A stretch of DNA of 64,000 nt from Pascua guehoae (taxonomy: Eukaryota > Basidiomycota > Tremellomycetes > Trichosporonales > Trichosporonaceae). Of the stretch, positions 3,515-19,640 are shown in pieces (the stretch's first letter is position 1; each line of letters begins with the position of its first letter). The notes under the pieces were generated by a model. The model was not told the DNA's origin, did no database searches, and saw nothing but the letters and a program-made list of their open reading frames with translations. The stretch is taken from positions 1,604,169 to 1,668,168 of the forward strand of contig BCJX01000004.1 of NCBI GenBank assembly GCA_001600415.1. Reading direction: 5' to 3'. Both the position numbers and the translations under genes were made by a program.

Positions 3515-5564
3515 CTACGACGACCGTTTACACTCGAAACAGGGGGGCTCATTCATTGGCCAGACTGTGAACGGCCCAAACCTCCTCCTCAACATTGCGA
3601 TTGCAGCACTCGAGGCGCGCGCGCTAGGCTTGGTGGTTGGGCGGCCGTGTTTGCAAAGGATGGTATACTTGGAATCGTCCGGGGCGGGGACGACGTCCTG
3701 GTCTTCCTGGAAGAAATGACACGATCTCCACGCTTCGAGCCAAGTACGGGAGATAGCGTAGCTTACGTCCGAGGGGTACCGCCTGTTAAGGATGTCGAAC
3801 TCGGATATCAGTTCGAATTCTTTGGTAAAACGTCGGCGTTCCCGGTTATCAATTTCGAAGCATTGCAGGCAGTAATCGGTCGTTTTCCCCGTTCGGCGAT
3901 CTCTTCGCGTCACTGCTCCATGTTCACATTCTTTGGACACGAAGAAGTGGCATTTGACCTCCTCAGGGCATGGCTGCGGAGTATCAGCGACCGGCTTGAG
4001 TTGCACTGACATCTGCGGAATACGACGTAGGTATGTCGTCGTCGTCTACTGGCGGGGCGCATTGCTGGAAATTAGTCACACCGGCCTGATTGGGGATAAG
4101 GGCGTACCTCTTTGTCCCTGGTCTCTTCGGGGTGGCCGCCAGATGGGAGAAGAGATTGTATACTCCGATAAAACCCGTTGGGATCAATCCTGTCCAATGT
4201 GAGCGACGGCCATGCGAGTCAGACGTACCAGCGTATTCCAGAATTAAGGGACGCTCCTTGACGTCCGTCGCCGGCTTGGCGGACCTCGGAGTAGACGAGA
4301 AGATAGGCGGTGCCCGATTCGTACCGGGCTCGAGGGATTATCGGGCTGACCTTTTCTCTATCGATGAAAAGGTACTCCCAGGGGCTGGGTGTTAGGTTTG
4401 GAGACAGACTTCAACGCACTCTTGGTAAAAAGCTTCACAGTGGTAATCTCCGCCATCCCCGTCATCGCCATCGTCGCCATCACCATTAAGGCCCTTGATG
4501 TTAGCTTGTCACGGGCTCCTCACTTACGGTGGGTCCACAATGCGATACCACCATCCGAAGACGGTAGTCTGTGTCGAGCAACGTCATGCGAAACGCATAG
4601 GTAACTATGCCGCCCCTCTCTTTCGACGGTTCATTGCCCAGATTTTGTTTTGAACGGTCTATCTCGATGTGGAGCGTTGGCGGTAGTCGGAAGATGCTCA
4701 TCTCCTCTGTTGTACCCCCGCAAGTTCTACATAGGTAGGGTCCGGGGAAGGCACGAGGCTCCAGCTTAGGTTGAAGTAGGGTCTCAATTGACCGGTTCTT
4801 GTCCTTGACGCAGTTAGTGCCTGTGTCCCACTGGGAGTCAACGCACAGAAGGGCTAATCTTGAAGCCTTGGTATACGACTTTCGACTCCCCATACTCTCC
4901 CAGCCATTCAATTCCGAGCTCCTCGTCCAAGAACTCTCGGACCCGGATGCTAGTGTTAAGGCGGAGCCTGTTTGCCCAAAACCGCATGTTGAAACTGGGG
5001 GTTAGGAACTATCTGCTTTATTGTGAGAGCATAATCGTTCAAAACGCAACAGGAAGCTGGGGTTCAATCCAGTGCTCGCTTGACGTACCGGGAGGGATCA
5101 AGACAGCGGAGGGCATTGACTTCAACATATAGACACCAAAGAAATCTGTCGGTGTCCACTGCCTCCCCCCAATCCACCGCCCGGAGGATGTCATAGAGTT
5201 CAGCAAGGCCGTGGAGCTCGGGTGGACAGTGTGTTCCGCCTTTCCAGGCAGCGATAATGTGCCAGCGAAATGGGGGGTGGCTGACGAGCATGGTGAGAAC
5301 TTTATATACCTGCTATCAGCACTTGACTACGTTTCCACGTACAAAGTCACCGGTCCACTGGCTCGCGCGGCCGGTGATCAGGGCTCGAAATTCGAACGGC
5401 AGCATGTCTGTTTGATGGTTGCGATGGATTGTGGTAAACTTGGCGAATGCAGAAGGCCCTTGATGGTAAAGTAGTAGACGGGGTTAAGAGGAGCTCGTGG
5501 GAGACGGGAGGATAAGGGGCGACTGAGAAGGGTGGAAATGTGACGTACAGCCAGGTAGCAGCAT
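3515..5564 (-). CDS. Ubiquitin-specific-protease-like protein, probably catalytically dead
   Basis: My model joins nine exons: 5564-5549, 5458-5343, 5309-5089, 4994-4877, 4830-4528, 4493-4416, 4374-4229, 4189-4108, 4064-4011 and a last one at 3973-3515. All phases match and the product is 530 residues. The USP fold is readable in order: VLTMLVSHPPFR (after the Cys box), CLYVE...RCLDPS, TSIRVREFLDEEL (QQDAxEF position), CRTCGGTTEEMSIFRLPP (zinc finger and LPP), and YRLRMVVSHCG. These are followed by GGDYHCEAF (His box) and YLFIDREKV...TAYLLVYSE. The C-terminal part has two CxHG...CxxC elements plus ISRTWLEAW, like the DUSP region of USP48/UBP26. The Cys box reads GDFVY instead of GNTCY and the His box GDY instead of GHY. 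A pseudoenzyme binding ubiquitin or a partner is inferred. Some introns are only 33-34 nt, so boundaries may shift. Confidence 0.6.
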
Positions 5565-7134: not shown

Positions 7135-8918
7135 GGGCGCAAGGATGCCAAGGCAGCCGACGTGCAGACCTTCCAAGAGGCACCCACCAGTCTCACGTTG
7201 GTCTAGGCCGTTTTGACACCTTCTGTTCGTATGTACTAGCGCATTGTGAGTGTCTGAGTGGGACTCTCACCCAAGTCTGATGCAGCTTTGCACAGTCACC
7301 TGTTCGATTTCTGAGGTTTGGAACACGCTTGAATCTGACGAGTGAGGATAATGGGCCTCCCACGTTTACGACATGCAGCATGCAGTATGCTTGCAAATGT
7401 GGGGACACGTCGGCCCATGTCGGCCAGTCGGCTGGCCATGCAGCCATGGCTGCCCACCTTCCTCAGCTGGCATGCATACACCGCTGCACTTGTGTGTCCC
7501 GATTCCAGCCGTCCGGAAGTACTTTTTGTTTCTGAACGCCACAGTGATATCTCACGCCCCTTGTTGCCTGCAGCCAACGTCAAGTAGCTCGAGTCGATAT
7601 GCGGTTTATTGGCGTGGTTGGTACACGTCCAGGCATCCAAAGGTCTAATCCAGACGTGTCGCCCCTTTGCAGCAGTGTGCATGCTAGTTTGCCGTTGTTG
7701 GGAGTTGAAAGAGTGGAGATGGCGAATTTGGAGTGGTGAATGTTGGATCCTGTGCCACACACTAAACAGGCACCGTACTACACCCTGCCGAGTGTGCCAC
7801 ACACGCAGAAGGCGAACAGGTATGGCATGATCCATGACATCGCGCCACATTGACACGGTCCATCACGTATCGTGTCCACCGTCATTGTGCACCTCAACAC
7901 AAGCGAGACATGTGCCGCAACCTGTATCTTTCACTGGTATCAGAGACGCACCACAGCGTTCGCTGGGGAATGAATGCTGCGCAACTTTACCGTCCGGCCA
8001 AGAAGCTTGCGAGTTGGATTCTGACCTTGGCTAGAGCGTGATTCAATACCTCTTTGGCATGAAAGGGCCTACTGTCGAGCTGGGCTGTTGTCGTGTGGCA
8101 CCCGTGCTGCTAAGATTTAGAACAGCATTGTGCGCGGACGTGTGCCAAGAACGAGGCTTGCGCTTGCCTGCACGCATGGGGGGCCTGGTTCTACAAAGGG
8201 TGCAGAGTGTGCAGCATGCAGCACGCAGGACACGCAGCAACGTACTTGCCGGGGTGAGGTGTGATGTGGCGTCCACGCCCCATTCATGGACAAGGCCATG
8301 AAAGGCATGGGTAGAGGGATAATAACAAGCACCTGCCACACCCCCATCATTGCAGCAAGGCTTTTGGATAGTTGAAAACCCCACCGCCTTGGAACTGGTT
8401 GTAGGACGTCCCAAGAGCATTTGGTGCCAAGAAGGCACAATTGTTGCAGATAAAATTCCACGGCCACGGGTACCAGATGCCGTGTCCAGCTCAGGTAGGC
8501 ACATCACACACGCTTTGCACAGCATTAATTAAACATCACACATAGGAGCAAGGGGCTTGCAGGAAACGTAGGGCTCAAAGGTTGCACACACCCGCGGCCG
8601 CCAGCGACAGCGACGGCAGGCGTGTTGGACGTAGCGAATTGTGCGCCCACGTTCTCACACTCCCAGAGATCAAGAGATCAGAGGATGAGAGGGCGCACAC
8701 CAGCAAGCAGCAACGTGGTCATGCGCGCTGCCCCATGTACGCTCGAGCCGCTGCGGGTGCAATATCAACTCACCCGGGCACACGATTCCTGCGTCGCTCT
8801 ATCGTCCATTACAACCACCACGACCTCTCCCTGCTCAACCTCACCCTTCACTCTAGCTATTCCCACTGGTGATCAAATACCATCATCCTCGGCTAGCCCC
8901 TTCGAAAGGCCGGCAATC
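7135..8918. other. Gene-poor stretch with repeats
   Basis: No gene is supported over 1.8 kb. Frames are open on both strands but change constantly and show no domain. Clusters of GCATGCAG-type motifs occur at 7370-7390 and 8200-8230. Bases about 7739-7775 resemble 2172-2212. Confidence 0.4.
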
Positions 8919-9607
8919 ATGAGTCTGCCCAAGCAGGACTCCCTGCTCGAGTGGACTGACCCGGGTAGCAGCAACCTGTCCGCTAGGTAGGTGTCTGTCT
9001 GTTGAAGTAACCCCCGGTTCCGTGTCTTACTCAAACAGCTCCTTGCGCAGGGCCGGGGTGACACGCTCTACAAAACTCGGTCGTCTCAGAGCCACAACGT
9101 CCTCGCAACCCCAGGCCGGTCGCACCGCGGACACGACCTCGCCCGCCCCGGCTAGCCTCCCGGCAGACAGGCCGCCCGGCAACTTCGTCATCACGTTCAA
9201 AGACGAGCGCGAGGTAGAGAATGCGCCTGCAGTTGAGCTGAGGCCGTATGTGAGTGACTCTCCCGCACGCACTTCTGCACCTTCTAACAGTCGAGGGCGA
9301 CTACGTTGCTCCTGCCGACCCCAAGAACAGGACTCCGGGACGCTGGGACTACTCGTCCCTTATGTGTCGTCATGGCCCGATCGATCCGGCCACACTTGGC
9401 ACCTCGGCCGTTCTCCTCACCAAACGCGAGTTTCTGGAGCTGCCTGGGAACCCTGGGGCGCGTGGGGCGGTTGATGATGACAATCTCTGTACCACGTGCG
9501 CCTACGAGGACTTTGTGCGCTGCAAGGGCATGGTCAAGGAGGCGGAGAAGATTGCAGAGGAAAACGGTGTGAACAACTTTTGCCCTATTGTAGATCTCGT
9601 CGAATAG
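8919..9607 (+). CDS. Small protein with a CxHG...CxxC zinc-like element
   Basis: Three exons (8919-8986, 9039-9249, 9296-9607) give 196 residues, with the stop at 9605-9607. The N-terminal half is basic and Ser/Thr/Ala-rich. The C-terminal half reads GDYVAPAD...LMCRHGPIDPATLGTSAVLL, then LELPG, then LCTTCAYEDF, followed by a helix (KGMVKEAEKIAEENG). CxHG followed by CxxC about 40 residues later is the same signature seen twice in the protease-like gene 3.4 kb away and is reminiscent of the segment next to DUSP domains in USP48/UBP26. It may be a truncated relative of that gene or an independent reader protein. The third acceptor was chosen to hold the frame (GTCGAG, not the preceding AACAG). 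It sits 450-550 bases upstream of the HINT gene on the same strand. Confidence 0.55.
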
Positions 9608-9953: not shown

Positions 9954-10002
<49 letters not shown>

Positions 10003-10158
10003 CACATTTGCACAGCATTCAGTGCACTGCTCTCTACCTCTCCCATTCTCACACCATCCCCTTCCTCGCTTTTCTTACTCTTTCAGTTCCACCACCTCAC
10101 TCCCAACTTGAGCTTCAAGAACCCACGCACCAGTAACTTGCGGCCATTCGCGCCGATC
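9608..10158. other. Intergenic with a (CA)n microsatellite
   Basis: No gene is seen. A CA repeat of about 50 bases spans 9954-10006 and is followed by a pyrimidine-rich stretch leading into the HINT gene. Confidence 0.5.
9954..10006. repeat. (CA)n microsatellite
   Basis: CA repeated about 25 times with a single CG interruption, 150 bases upstream of the HINT gene. Confidence 0.95.
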
Positions 10159-12153
10159 ATGACAACCGGGTCATGCAAAACCCGCAATTCTGCCGGTCCA
10201 GAGACTATCTCCGTAAGTGCTCCTTCGTCTCGGCACTGTCAATGCCTGACGGCACGCGACTGACTCATGAGCTACCCCCTGCAGCTATGCAGCGCAGCCA
10301 TAGCTTTTCCCCAGAAACTAAACTCATCATATACACGACCTCGGGACAGTACAGCACATCCGCCGCCGTCGTTTGGGTCGGGGATAAGCTTCTTGGTCCA
10401 GACGGTAGGCCGAGGGAGGTTCGACAGGTTTCCAGGGGCTCGTCTCGCCTCATTCAGATCGATTTCCATGGGCACGAGTCGCTCATCGTCACGCCGGGTC
10501 ATCAACTAGTTTTGCACGAGTGGAACGCCGCTACGTCTCGGGACACGACCGACCGACTCGCTCACCTGGTTCCGCTCGTTGCCAAAACACATCTCAACAC
10601 GATTGAGCGTAAAAACAGGCACCAGAAGGATCAGAGCACGGTCCTCGAGGTGCGCTGCGCCACGCTGCAAGATGCAATCCTCCAGGCCATCAAGTATCGC
10701 TCCGAGTGCTCGGACGACCCTCTGGCCTTTCTGCGCAAGCTGAGGGATGGGAGCCACACCATCAATTGCGACACGGCGGGTGTGGATGCGCACACTCTCG
10801 ACAATCTCGCCCAGCGGTGGGTGAAGAAGGTCCGTTCGTTCTTCCCTTTCAGCCTCTGCATCGACGACCTGCTCCCCGACGTGTCCATTTGCGAGGAGAG
10901 AGCTGTGATGGACGTCCGTACCCACGAGGTCTTTGTCCGGGTCCTTGTTCGGCACTCCGACTCCCACTGGCCCGAAGGTCGCTTCTACACAAACCTTGAG
11001 ACTCCAACAATCAACATTCCAATCTTTCCCATCCCGCCTCAGGTGGCCAGGTCGGAATGGCATGGTCACATTGGTGGCGTTGTTCTCAAATCCCCTGCCG
11101 AGCTCGCATCCATGAGTCCCAACGACAGGGACAGATACGTCGCATTCAGCGTGATCGCCGGTGTGGCTCGACCCATCCACATCAAGGACGTACGCTATCA
11201 AGGAGAAGAACGAAACCGATGGATCAGCTTCGTCCTTGCAGGAGAACACGACGACTTCACGCAAAACCAGCTGATCTTGAGGCACGACTCAATGGTCTTG
11301 TCGGCACAGGGGATGCGCGTGAGTTTTCAAAGGCAACCTCCCTCAACAGAGTTTGCTAACGTTCAGGTTGACGTCCGGGCGGGATATTCAGCCTCAGTGA
11401 GCAAATGGGCCCCAAATGTGAGAGTGAAGACTGATTACCGAGGCCGAGTCTGTAAACATCGCGCACCAAAAGGTTCTTAACACACTCGATCCCATCTCTG
11501 CAATCAGTCGCCCGTTCTCTGCCACGTTCCTGGATCAGAAGGCCGTACGTGAAGGTTTTGCCACGAGCTGACTCGGGTTCAGGAGCAGTCTAATGAAGAG
11601 TTTGAGCTCGTCATCGCGCAGTTTGGCAAGAGACTGGATAACTTCGTGGAACAGAGTGTATCTGTGCCCCCTGGCGTCTCGTGGGAATCTTACAAGGCAC
11701 TGACAGACGTGAGTGAACCACGAATCGCCCTGTTACCCAATCTCAGACTGTTATGACCAAAATTTGCACATGAAAAGCTGACATTGGCAGGACCGGGGAC
11801 GTCTCATAAAGCTGCAAGCGCTCTTTCAAGAATCGTACAAGGCGATGAAGGAGGTTGCCGAGTCAAGCGAGATGAAGGGCCGTGAACATTCTCGAGCCGT
11901 CTATTCGAGCCAGACTGGGCCCCGGGAACTTGTCGTCCAAGACTCTGATTCTGATTCGAGCGGCCCGGTGGAGATCCATTCACACCGTCCAGCTCTCCGA
12001 TCCAGACAGGTCCGACCCGGACCGGACCGACTCAGCCAAGTCCAATTCAGCCACGTCCGATCCAGCCAGGGCGACGACTGCAAGCCCACCAACGAAGCTG
12101 ATGTGAGTGTAGCAACGTCCCCCGAGTCGGAATCATTGTTCTCTGACTCATAG
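10159..12153 (+). CDS. Free-standing intein-like (HINT domain) protein
   Basis: The HINT fold is readable. Its N-terminal block is SFSPETKLII...VWVGDKLLGPDG, and block B is HESLIVTPGHQLVL with the conserved TxxH. The C-terminal part reads PAELASMSPNDRDRYVAF, then HIKDVRYQ, then NRWISFVLAGE...LILRHDSMVLSA, closely following fungal PRP8 inteins. The first intein residue would be Ser and the terminal His-Asn is Ser-Ala, so protein splicing is unlikely. About 200 residues separate blocks B and F without a LAGLIDADG motif. The C-terminal 200 residues are helical, then Ser/Asp-rich. Exon 2 ends at 11318; later exons are 11367-11396, 11443-11544, 11583-11708 and 11791-12153. Either ATG 10159 with acceptor 10292 (566 residues) or ATG 10173 with acceptor 10284 (564 residues) keeps the frame. 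It is not inserted in any recognisable host protein; a domesticated intein relic or a HINT protease-like protein is inferred. Confidence 0.72.
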
Positions 12154-18607: not shown

Positions 18608-19640
18608 CTACAGCTCGATGCTCACCAGCGCCCACCGCTGGCTATCCCACTCCCACTCGCCGACGGGCACGCCCGGACACACCGGCTGCCCGCCGACGTA
18701 CATGAGGGCGTGCATGAGCTCTGCGAGGGGCTGCGGCGCGCGCTCATCCTTGTCGAGAATGAGCAAGAGCTGCGCGGTGTCGAGCGTGTCCGCGAGGTCG
18801 AGGAGGGCCGTGAGCGACTCGCGGATATCGAGGGCCTGGGGCGCGGGCGCCGAGCGCGACGCCCTGGTGGGGACGGGGTGTGCGCGGCGCGGATCATGGG
18901 GGCGGAGGACGTCTGAAAAGTGCGGGGCGAGCGGGTCGGGGCGCGCGGGGGCCGACGCGTGCGTGGGGGGCAGGTGGACAAACATGATGCGGCCGAGTTC
19001 GGGGTCGTCTGCGATAAAGCCCTGGAGGACGTGGTCGGGGGGTGTGACGATTTCGAGCATGTGCGAGGCAGACGCGACGCCCGAGGCGGCATAGGGAAAC
19101 ACGGCCGTGATGAGGGGAAGGACGGGGGCGCAGCGCGATGCCGCCGAGGTGGAAGAGTGGTCGGACGCGGAGCGCGCAAGATGCGGGGCTTTCACGTCAT
19201 GCGCCGACGACGGCGGTGAGGGAGGGTGGTTTGGCTTGTGTTTGCTTGTAGATGAGGTTGTGTTATTGGTATTCGAGGTCGGGAAAATAGGCCGAACCGC
19301 GCTCGGAGGAGAGAGTGAGCACGGTGGCGTAATGGGCATGCTTGTGGTGGTATTCGTGCTCGAGGCGTGGTGCGAGGCGGGAGGAAGGACGCCATCCTTG
19401 CCGCAGCTGGGCGGGCTCCCCCCGCCCGCCTCAAACCCACTGCCGGGCACCGCCACCCAACGTCGAGCAGTAGCCCTGGGCCGTGCCCAGGGCGGCCGAC
19501 TCTTCGGTGTACAGGTACGTCTCTCCCGCACGCCCGCCGGCGCGCGCGAGCGCGAGCGCAGGCATGGACATTGGCGAGCGGGCCGCTGCCGCAGCCGAGA
19601 AGAGCCACGGCAGGTCGTCGGAATTTGGCGTGATATTCAT
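18608..19640 (-). CDS. OAZ1: Ornithine decarboxylase antizyme (programmed +1 frameshift)
   Basis: Antizyme binds ornithine decarboxylase and sends it to the proteasome, limiting polyamines. The gene has two overlapping frames. ORF1 runs from ATG 19640 to the TGA at 19433-19431 (69 codons, ending GGGARQWV). ORF2 continues in the +1 frame from 19432 to TAG 18608-18610 (274 residues). The C-terminal half of ORF2 carries the family signature: IRESLTALLDLADTLDTAQL, LLILDKDERAPQPLAELMHA and LMYVGGQPVCPGVP. The preceding part contains GRIMFVHLPP. The middle is a Ser/Thr/Pro/His linker. ORF2 has no suitable start of its own, which supports frameshifting. Polyamine-stimulated +1 shifting is the known regulation of this family. 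It is divergent from the Bax-inhibitor gene with 575 bases between. Confidence 0.85.
19431..19436 (-). promoter_or_regulatory. +1 frameshift site GTT-TGA of antizyme
   Basis: On the minus strand the last sense codon GTT (19436-19434) is followed by the ORF1 stop TGA (19433-19431). Skipping the T at 19433 enters the antizyme frame at GAG (19432-19430). A sense codon followed by TGA is the usual antizyme shift site, although TCC-TGA is commoner. No 3' pseudoknot could be recognised by eye. Confidence 0.75.

Follow-up and report, generated by a model that had tools for sequence, protein, structure and literature searches.

The stretch of DNA analysed here (the window, 64,000 nucleotides of contig C4 of Pascua guehoae) carries on its forward strand a gene whose predicted product resembles the HINT domain of inteins (Table 1). 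Candidate starts of the gene lie at 10159, 10173 or 10287, and the stop-to-stop frame (10137-11477, +) stays open for 447 codons. The candidate exon at 11508-11544 does not keep the phase (worked out by hand), and for this reason 11397-11582 may be a single intron, beside candidate introns at 11319-11366 and 11709-11790. Of the helical C-terminus of 200 residues that the preliminary description had proposed, two later exons (42 and 120 codons) are likely, the full extent being unconfirmed; the last exon found one more match in the genome, a weak one (E 0.21). A fragment similar to a USP48-like deubiquitinase gene lies 0.58 kb upstream of the HINT gene and shares its strand, and two further USP48-like pieces lie on the opposite strand. 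The upstream frame is closed by a stop codon at 9605-9607, which agrees with the earlier view of the HINT gene as free-standing, without long exteins; the frame of the HINT gene is intact. A CA repeat occupies 9957-10005, between the fragment and the HINT gene. Elsewhere in the window, 18611-19636 (-) encodes an ornithine decarboxylase antizyme domain (E 1.4e-14); antizyme genes usually need a programmed frameshift.

Table 1. Features of the window and of related loci (positions are those of the window unless a locus is named; scores are given against shuffles as mean±s.d.)
Feature	Position	Strand	Evidence or remark
Stand-alone HINT gene	10159..12153	+	Extent from the preliminary description; open frame, splice candidates, coding signal
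Main exon with complete HINT region	10287..11318	+	344 codons, Met at 10287 to GT donor at 11319
Block A region, position 1 Ser (SFSPETKLI)	10302..10343	+	MAFFT alignment to the genome's own PRP8 intein; not covered by the local BLAST match
GDKLLGPDG to block B	10380..10502	+	phmmer, BLASTP, shuffle tests
Middle region, 210 codons	10542..11171	+	Neither an endonuclease nor any other domain detected
C-terminal HINT blocks, ending LRHDSMVL-Ser-Ala, not His-Asn	11178..11306	+	Shuffle tests, profile
Possible phase-0 intron, 48 nt, directly 3' of block G	11319..11366	+	GT..AG with CTAAC
Likely exon of the C-terminal extension, 42 codons	11583..11708	+	Codon-position bias 0.60/0.33/0.62; single in genome
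Likely final exon (120 codons, then the stop)	11791..12153	+	Codon-position bias 0.64/0.47/0.62
USP48-like fragment, similarity at 9344-9574	9254..9604	+	tblastn E 5.6e-6; 95 vs 29.2±4.7, 0/2000; genome search E 0.0012
USP48-like paralogue, post-UCH region	3518..4045	-	tblastn E 2.2e-11; 147 vs 31.7±5.0, 0/2000; genome search E 1.2e-9
USP48-like paralogue, part of UCH domain	4504..5001	-	Pfam UCH E 0.03, under cut-off; tblastn E 4.5e-5; 88 vs 29.7±4.7, 0/2000
The genome's own PRP8 intein	L003:490-1737, contig C1	-	Cys1, His-Asn, Hom_end_hint 3e-11, Hom_end 7e-7
Two ectopic LAGLIDADG intein-derived copies	L019:4163-5946 and 8909-9304, contig C6:1706000-1715999	-	Among UCH-domain pieces

The preliminary description had read blocks of a PRP8-intein-like HINT domain in the protein, and the comparisons bear this out. 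The profile search suggested there did return Hom_end_hint (Pfam, E 4.2e-5), yet at 24.1 bits, under the cut-off of 32.1; NCBIfam gave no match to the protein. A phmmer search of the PDB gave 13 sequences at E<=10, the top three being PRP8 inteins (E 9.8e-5 to 1.3e-4), with PI-SceI, the VMA1 intein, ranked under them (0.057 vs ~1e-4). The genome's own PRP8 intein was matched by BLASTP at E 5e-8. In Smith-Waterman alignments the N-terminal half of the HINT domain scored 94 with that intein, against 25.8±4.4 for shuffles (0/2000), and the C-terminal half scored 49 with 6mx6 (19.3±3.8) and 48 with 6mwy (19.7±3.9; 0/5000 in both cases), and only 31 with the genome's own intein (18.9±3.6; 51/5000). 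These scores indicate that both halves are present, the N-terminal one more firmly, with the PRP8 inteins (6mx6, 6owu, 6mwy) as the best sequence match for both. It is scarcely credible that the similarity is a chance resemblance, given the scores of the two halves against shuffles and the correct order and spacing of the blocks, even though the Pfam match is under the cut-off, a three-row profile of the C-terminal blocks is unconvincing (2.3 bits, exceeded by at least 8 of 2000 shuffles) and a single-sequence structure model is of too low confidence to be usable (mean pLDDT 34.6, pTM 0.23).

Over the first 50 intein residues the protein scored 85 with the genome's own PRP8 intein and 73 each with 6mx6, 6mwy and PI-SceI (all 0/2000). 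Since PI-SceI ties with 6mx6 here, descent from a PRP8 intein is likely, if unproven, and a PRP8-like intein appears the better fit for the origin of the domain. Cys1 and the terminal Asn are given as features of a functional PRP8 intein (PMC6805012). The window gene shares the TxxH of block B with PRP8 inteins (TPGH at 10491-10502) and differs from them in lying outside PRP8, in having Ser for Cys1 (10302-10304) and in having Ser-Ala for the terminal His-Asn (11301-11306), all as the alignments read and as the preliminary description had stated or, for the Ser, had suggested as a possibility. No LAGLIDADG endonuclease was detected in the protein; a degenerate motif picked by eye was dropped, its score being at shuffle level (27 vs 30.8). 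With neither a detectable endonuclease nor a terminal Asn, this copy should neither home nor complete splicing, and its predicted product should be unable to cut DNA by an endonuclease domain. An acyl shift or the cleavage of a short leader would be possible, given Ser1 and the TxxH.

We searched the genome (33.6 Mb, 28 contigs) for relatives. PRP8 itself sits with its own intein on contig C1, not on C4, and so is not the host of the window gene, again as first described; by eye, the first LAGLIDADG motif of the C1 intein (WFIGFCMADD) looks degenerate. The window protein had no match in the genome beyond this intein, the Intein_splicing profile had none at all, and tblastn found no relatives of the protein in viral contigs. 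Hom_end found one place on contig C6 (E 0.014) in addition to the PRP8 intein. Two ectopic copies lie there, matched by the PRP8 intein in tblastn at 2.9e-10 and 7.5e-8. The first (C6A) is a 132-codon frame with the motif LLAGLIDSDG and reaches Hom_end E 2e-4 on its own. The second (C6B), 4.4 kb away, has the motif FAGLLDSDG and is 58% identical to C6A. Within C6B the first LAGLIDADG motif is preceded by a stop codon, FLDLWLGDGS standing right behind the stop (by eye), and the parts occupy different frames, with introns possible between them in places; because of the stop codon and the frame changes this copy looks disrupted. Taken together, the C6 copies are ectopic genes of intein origin, fragmentary or disrupted.

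C6B also has a HINT-like C-terminal block, LRNDNVILSS (picked by eye), with Ser-Ser for His-Asn. It scored 40 with the genome's own PRP8 intein, against 19.4±3.6 for shuffles (0/5000), with shuffle counts of 10/5000 for 6mx6 and 18/5000 for 6mwy; its likeness to the window protein is weak (177/5000). A possible N-terminal block of C6B resembled the window protein (28/5000) and showed no likeness to PRP8 inteins (3059/5000 and 4013/5000), and Pfam found neither a HINT nor a LAGLIDADG family on the C6B frames. A possible phase-0 intron follows block G in both genes; counted from where the LRxD motif starts, it lies 14 codons away in the window gene and 13 in C6B. A likeness between their linkers seen by eye was at shuffle level, and their tails are not alike. 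The C6 locus is flanked by paralogous frames about 37 kb apart (L016:7864-9336 and L055:8637-9350, both -; E 8e-17).

The state of these relatives raises the question of whether the window gene is itself an old mis-homed intein copy, dying neutrally, open by chance and functionless. The fragmentary or disrupted C6 copies, the loss of the splicing residues and the endonuclease, and the exon that breaks phase all fit this, as does a weak coding score: per codon, the HINT frame reached 0.04, where the PRP8 intein had 0.44 and the training genes 0.46-0.66. The frame was the top of the three plus frames in all 13 segments of 180 nt scored (starts 10140-11220), with an antisense frame outscoring it in three of the 13. 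Against a neutral copy, 344 codons stayed open in 15 of 20,000 simulated sequences of the gene's composition, and a codon-position bias persists in the main exon (the frame has G+C of 0.60/0.42/0.70 by position) and, to a similar degree, in the two later exons. We therefore regard a dying, functionless copy as quite unlikely.

Pieces of one other gene accompany the intein-derived genes at both loci. An apparently complete USP48-like gene lies on contig C1 and encodes UCH (6e-14), DUSP (0.015, under cut-off) and ubiquitin-like (2e-7) domains by Pfam, a layout that we take to be that of USP48. In a tblastn search with parts of this gene (152,802 bases), the window was matched at 3527-3877, 9344-9574 and 4519-4791 (E values in Table 1) and the C6 locus L019 at three places (2.6e-6, 1.5e-5 and 1.9e-4). 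The C6 locus has UCH-domain pieces at 9.5e-6, at 2.8e-4 (under cut-off) and, with eight in-frame stops, at 4.2e-5; the UCH profile had 35 matches in the genome as a whole. When 17 pieces were compared with five parts of the C1 gene, eight exceeded shuffles by 3 s.d. and nine did not. Among the eight, six gave 0/2000, one 1/2000 and one, L019:6040-6174, 20/2000; the last rests on seven residues and was left uncounted. The pieces share about 30% identity with the C1 gene (tblastn), and are for that reason old, and no fresh products of homing. Next to the C1 gene no intein-derived element turned up, and a comparison of the tails of the HINT genes with the USP48-like gene, as their possible source, came out negative.

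When the genome was searched with the post-UCH region of the C1 gene (272 residues), scoring best candidates only, four matches came up, one of them the region itself. The three others, C4:1607689-1608048 (1.2e-9), C4:1613509-1613742 (0.0012) and C6:1708352-1708573 (0.0024), the latter two weak, each lie no more than 6.3 kb from an ectopic gene derived from an intein; a single event may account for the two in the window. By arithmetic, 10 kb on either side of the two loci makes up about 0.12% of the genome. This concentration of all three non-self matches, among the best candidates scored, makes it distinctly improbable that the proximity is a coincidence, or reflects a shared unstable region, and that the HINT gene escaped from PRP8 by itself. 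Such a coincidence would fit the little sequence common to the window gene and C6B and the absence of other gene content common to both loci (968 frames compared with 1274 by blastp yielded two weak matches, both away from the elements).

The position of the pieces allows a different reading, in which the window gene is the relic of a true intein once inside a USP48-like paralogue, whose exteins decayed while the HINT part acquired its own start, with no free homing stage. USP48-like fragments indeed lie upstream on the same strand both in the window and at C6B (L019:6202-6600 and L019:5509-5946). However, the fragment in the window comes from the post-UCH region and that at C6 from the start of UCH; because they derive from different parts of the gene, there is no common insertion site. 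As the tails too are unlike the USP48-like gene, we think this relic unlikely, though it deserves to be kept in mind.

We instead favour, at a probability of about one half, the view that the window gene survives, without an endonuclease, from a small family of intein-derived genes that stand alone in this fungus. In its favour are the scores of both HINT halves, the presence of PRP8 with an intein elsewhere, the C6 copies with their LAGLIDADG motifs, the similar place of the possible intron and the USP48-like pieces at both loci. Against it are the endonuclease undetected in the window protein, the unlike linkers and tails, the weak likeness of the C6B C-terminal block to the window protein, the C6B N-terminal block unlike PRP8 inteins, the lack of Pfam matches on the C6B frames, the tie of PI-SceI with 6mx6, the two weak genome matches, the age of the USP48-like pieces and the C1 gene with no element next to it. 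We infer that a PRP8-like intein left its host gene and acquired a promoter of its own and an extension at the C-terminus. The escaped intein would then have turned into a homing element that cut the USP48-like deubiquitinase gene and took pieces of it along, in the manner of the WHO elements. The C6 copies would have decayed thereafter, and the window copy would have lost its endonuclease and retained its frame. Its product would most likely be a HINT scaffold retained because it binds something, or else a late relic.

The model for this scenario comes from yeast, whose HO and WHO proteins derive from inteins but stand alone, without exteins; WHO clusters are described as combining free intein-like genes with decayed sisters and with pieces of a single other gene (PMC7282813). 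By this model, the lineage found here would once have homed into the USP48-like gene, or ridden with it. The layout resembles that of the selfish elements that gave rise to mating-type switching in yeast. The likeness extends to stand-alone genes without exteins, disrupted sister copies, fragments of a host gene nearby and an extra C-terminal part. In contrast to HO and WHO as described there, the intein is here most like PRP8 rather than VMA1, the accompanying gene is USP48-like rather than FBA1 or MAT, and the shape of block G is kept in the window gene, motif G being absent from HO and WHO. Further differences are that LAGLIDADG is undetected in the window protein and carried by its C6 relatives, that Pfam finds no zinc finger on the two likely tail exons, and that homing is here a proposal. 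A neighbourhood like that of HO was looked for, and Pfam found no mating-type gene among the 29 window frames scanned.

These known systems speak against one remark of the preliminary description, which was aware of no described family of this kind. Besides HO and WHO, fungal and protist open reading frames with Hint motifs A and B that are neither inteins, Hog nor BIL proteins were reported in 2008 (PMC2362128). These unclassified frames may include relatives of the window gene. Another study groups HO with VMA1 inteins and notes that the function of most Hint proteins is unknown (PMC5784728). Among the matches listed from open-licence PubMed Central papers, a set with most subscription papers outside it, neither a free-standing gene for a PRP8-like intein nor a link between an intein and a deubiquitinase came up.

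More tentatively, and somewhat short of even odds, we propose that these genes are a second, independent homing lineage of the WHO kind, with a PRP8-like intein as its origin and a USP48-like gene as its target, one member of which is now an endonuclease-free, non-splicing HINT protein with a cellular role. Such a parallel case, arising from a different intein and involving a different host gene, would show that the escape of an intein into a free gene has happened more than once, and would allow a comparison, across two origins, of the stages through which an intein becomes a selfish element and then a domesticated protein.
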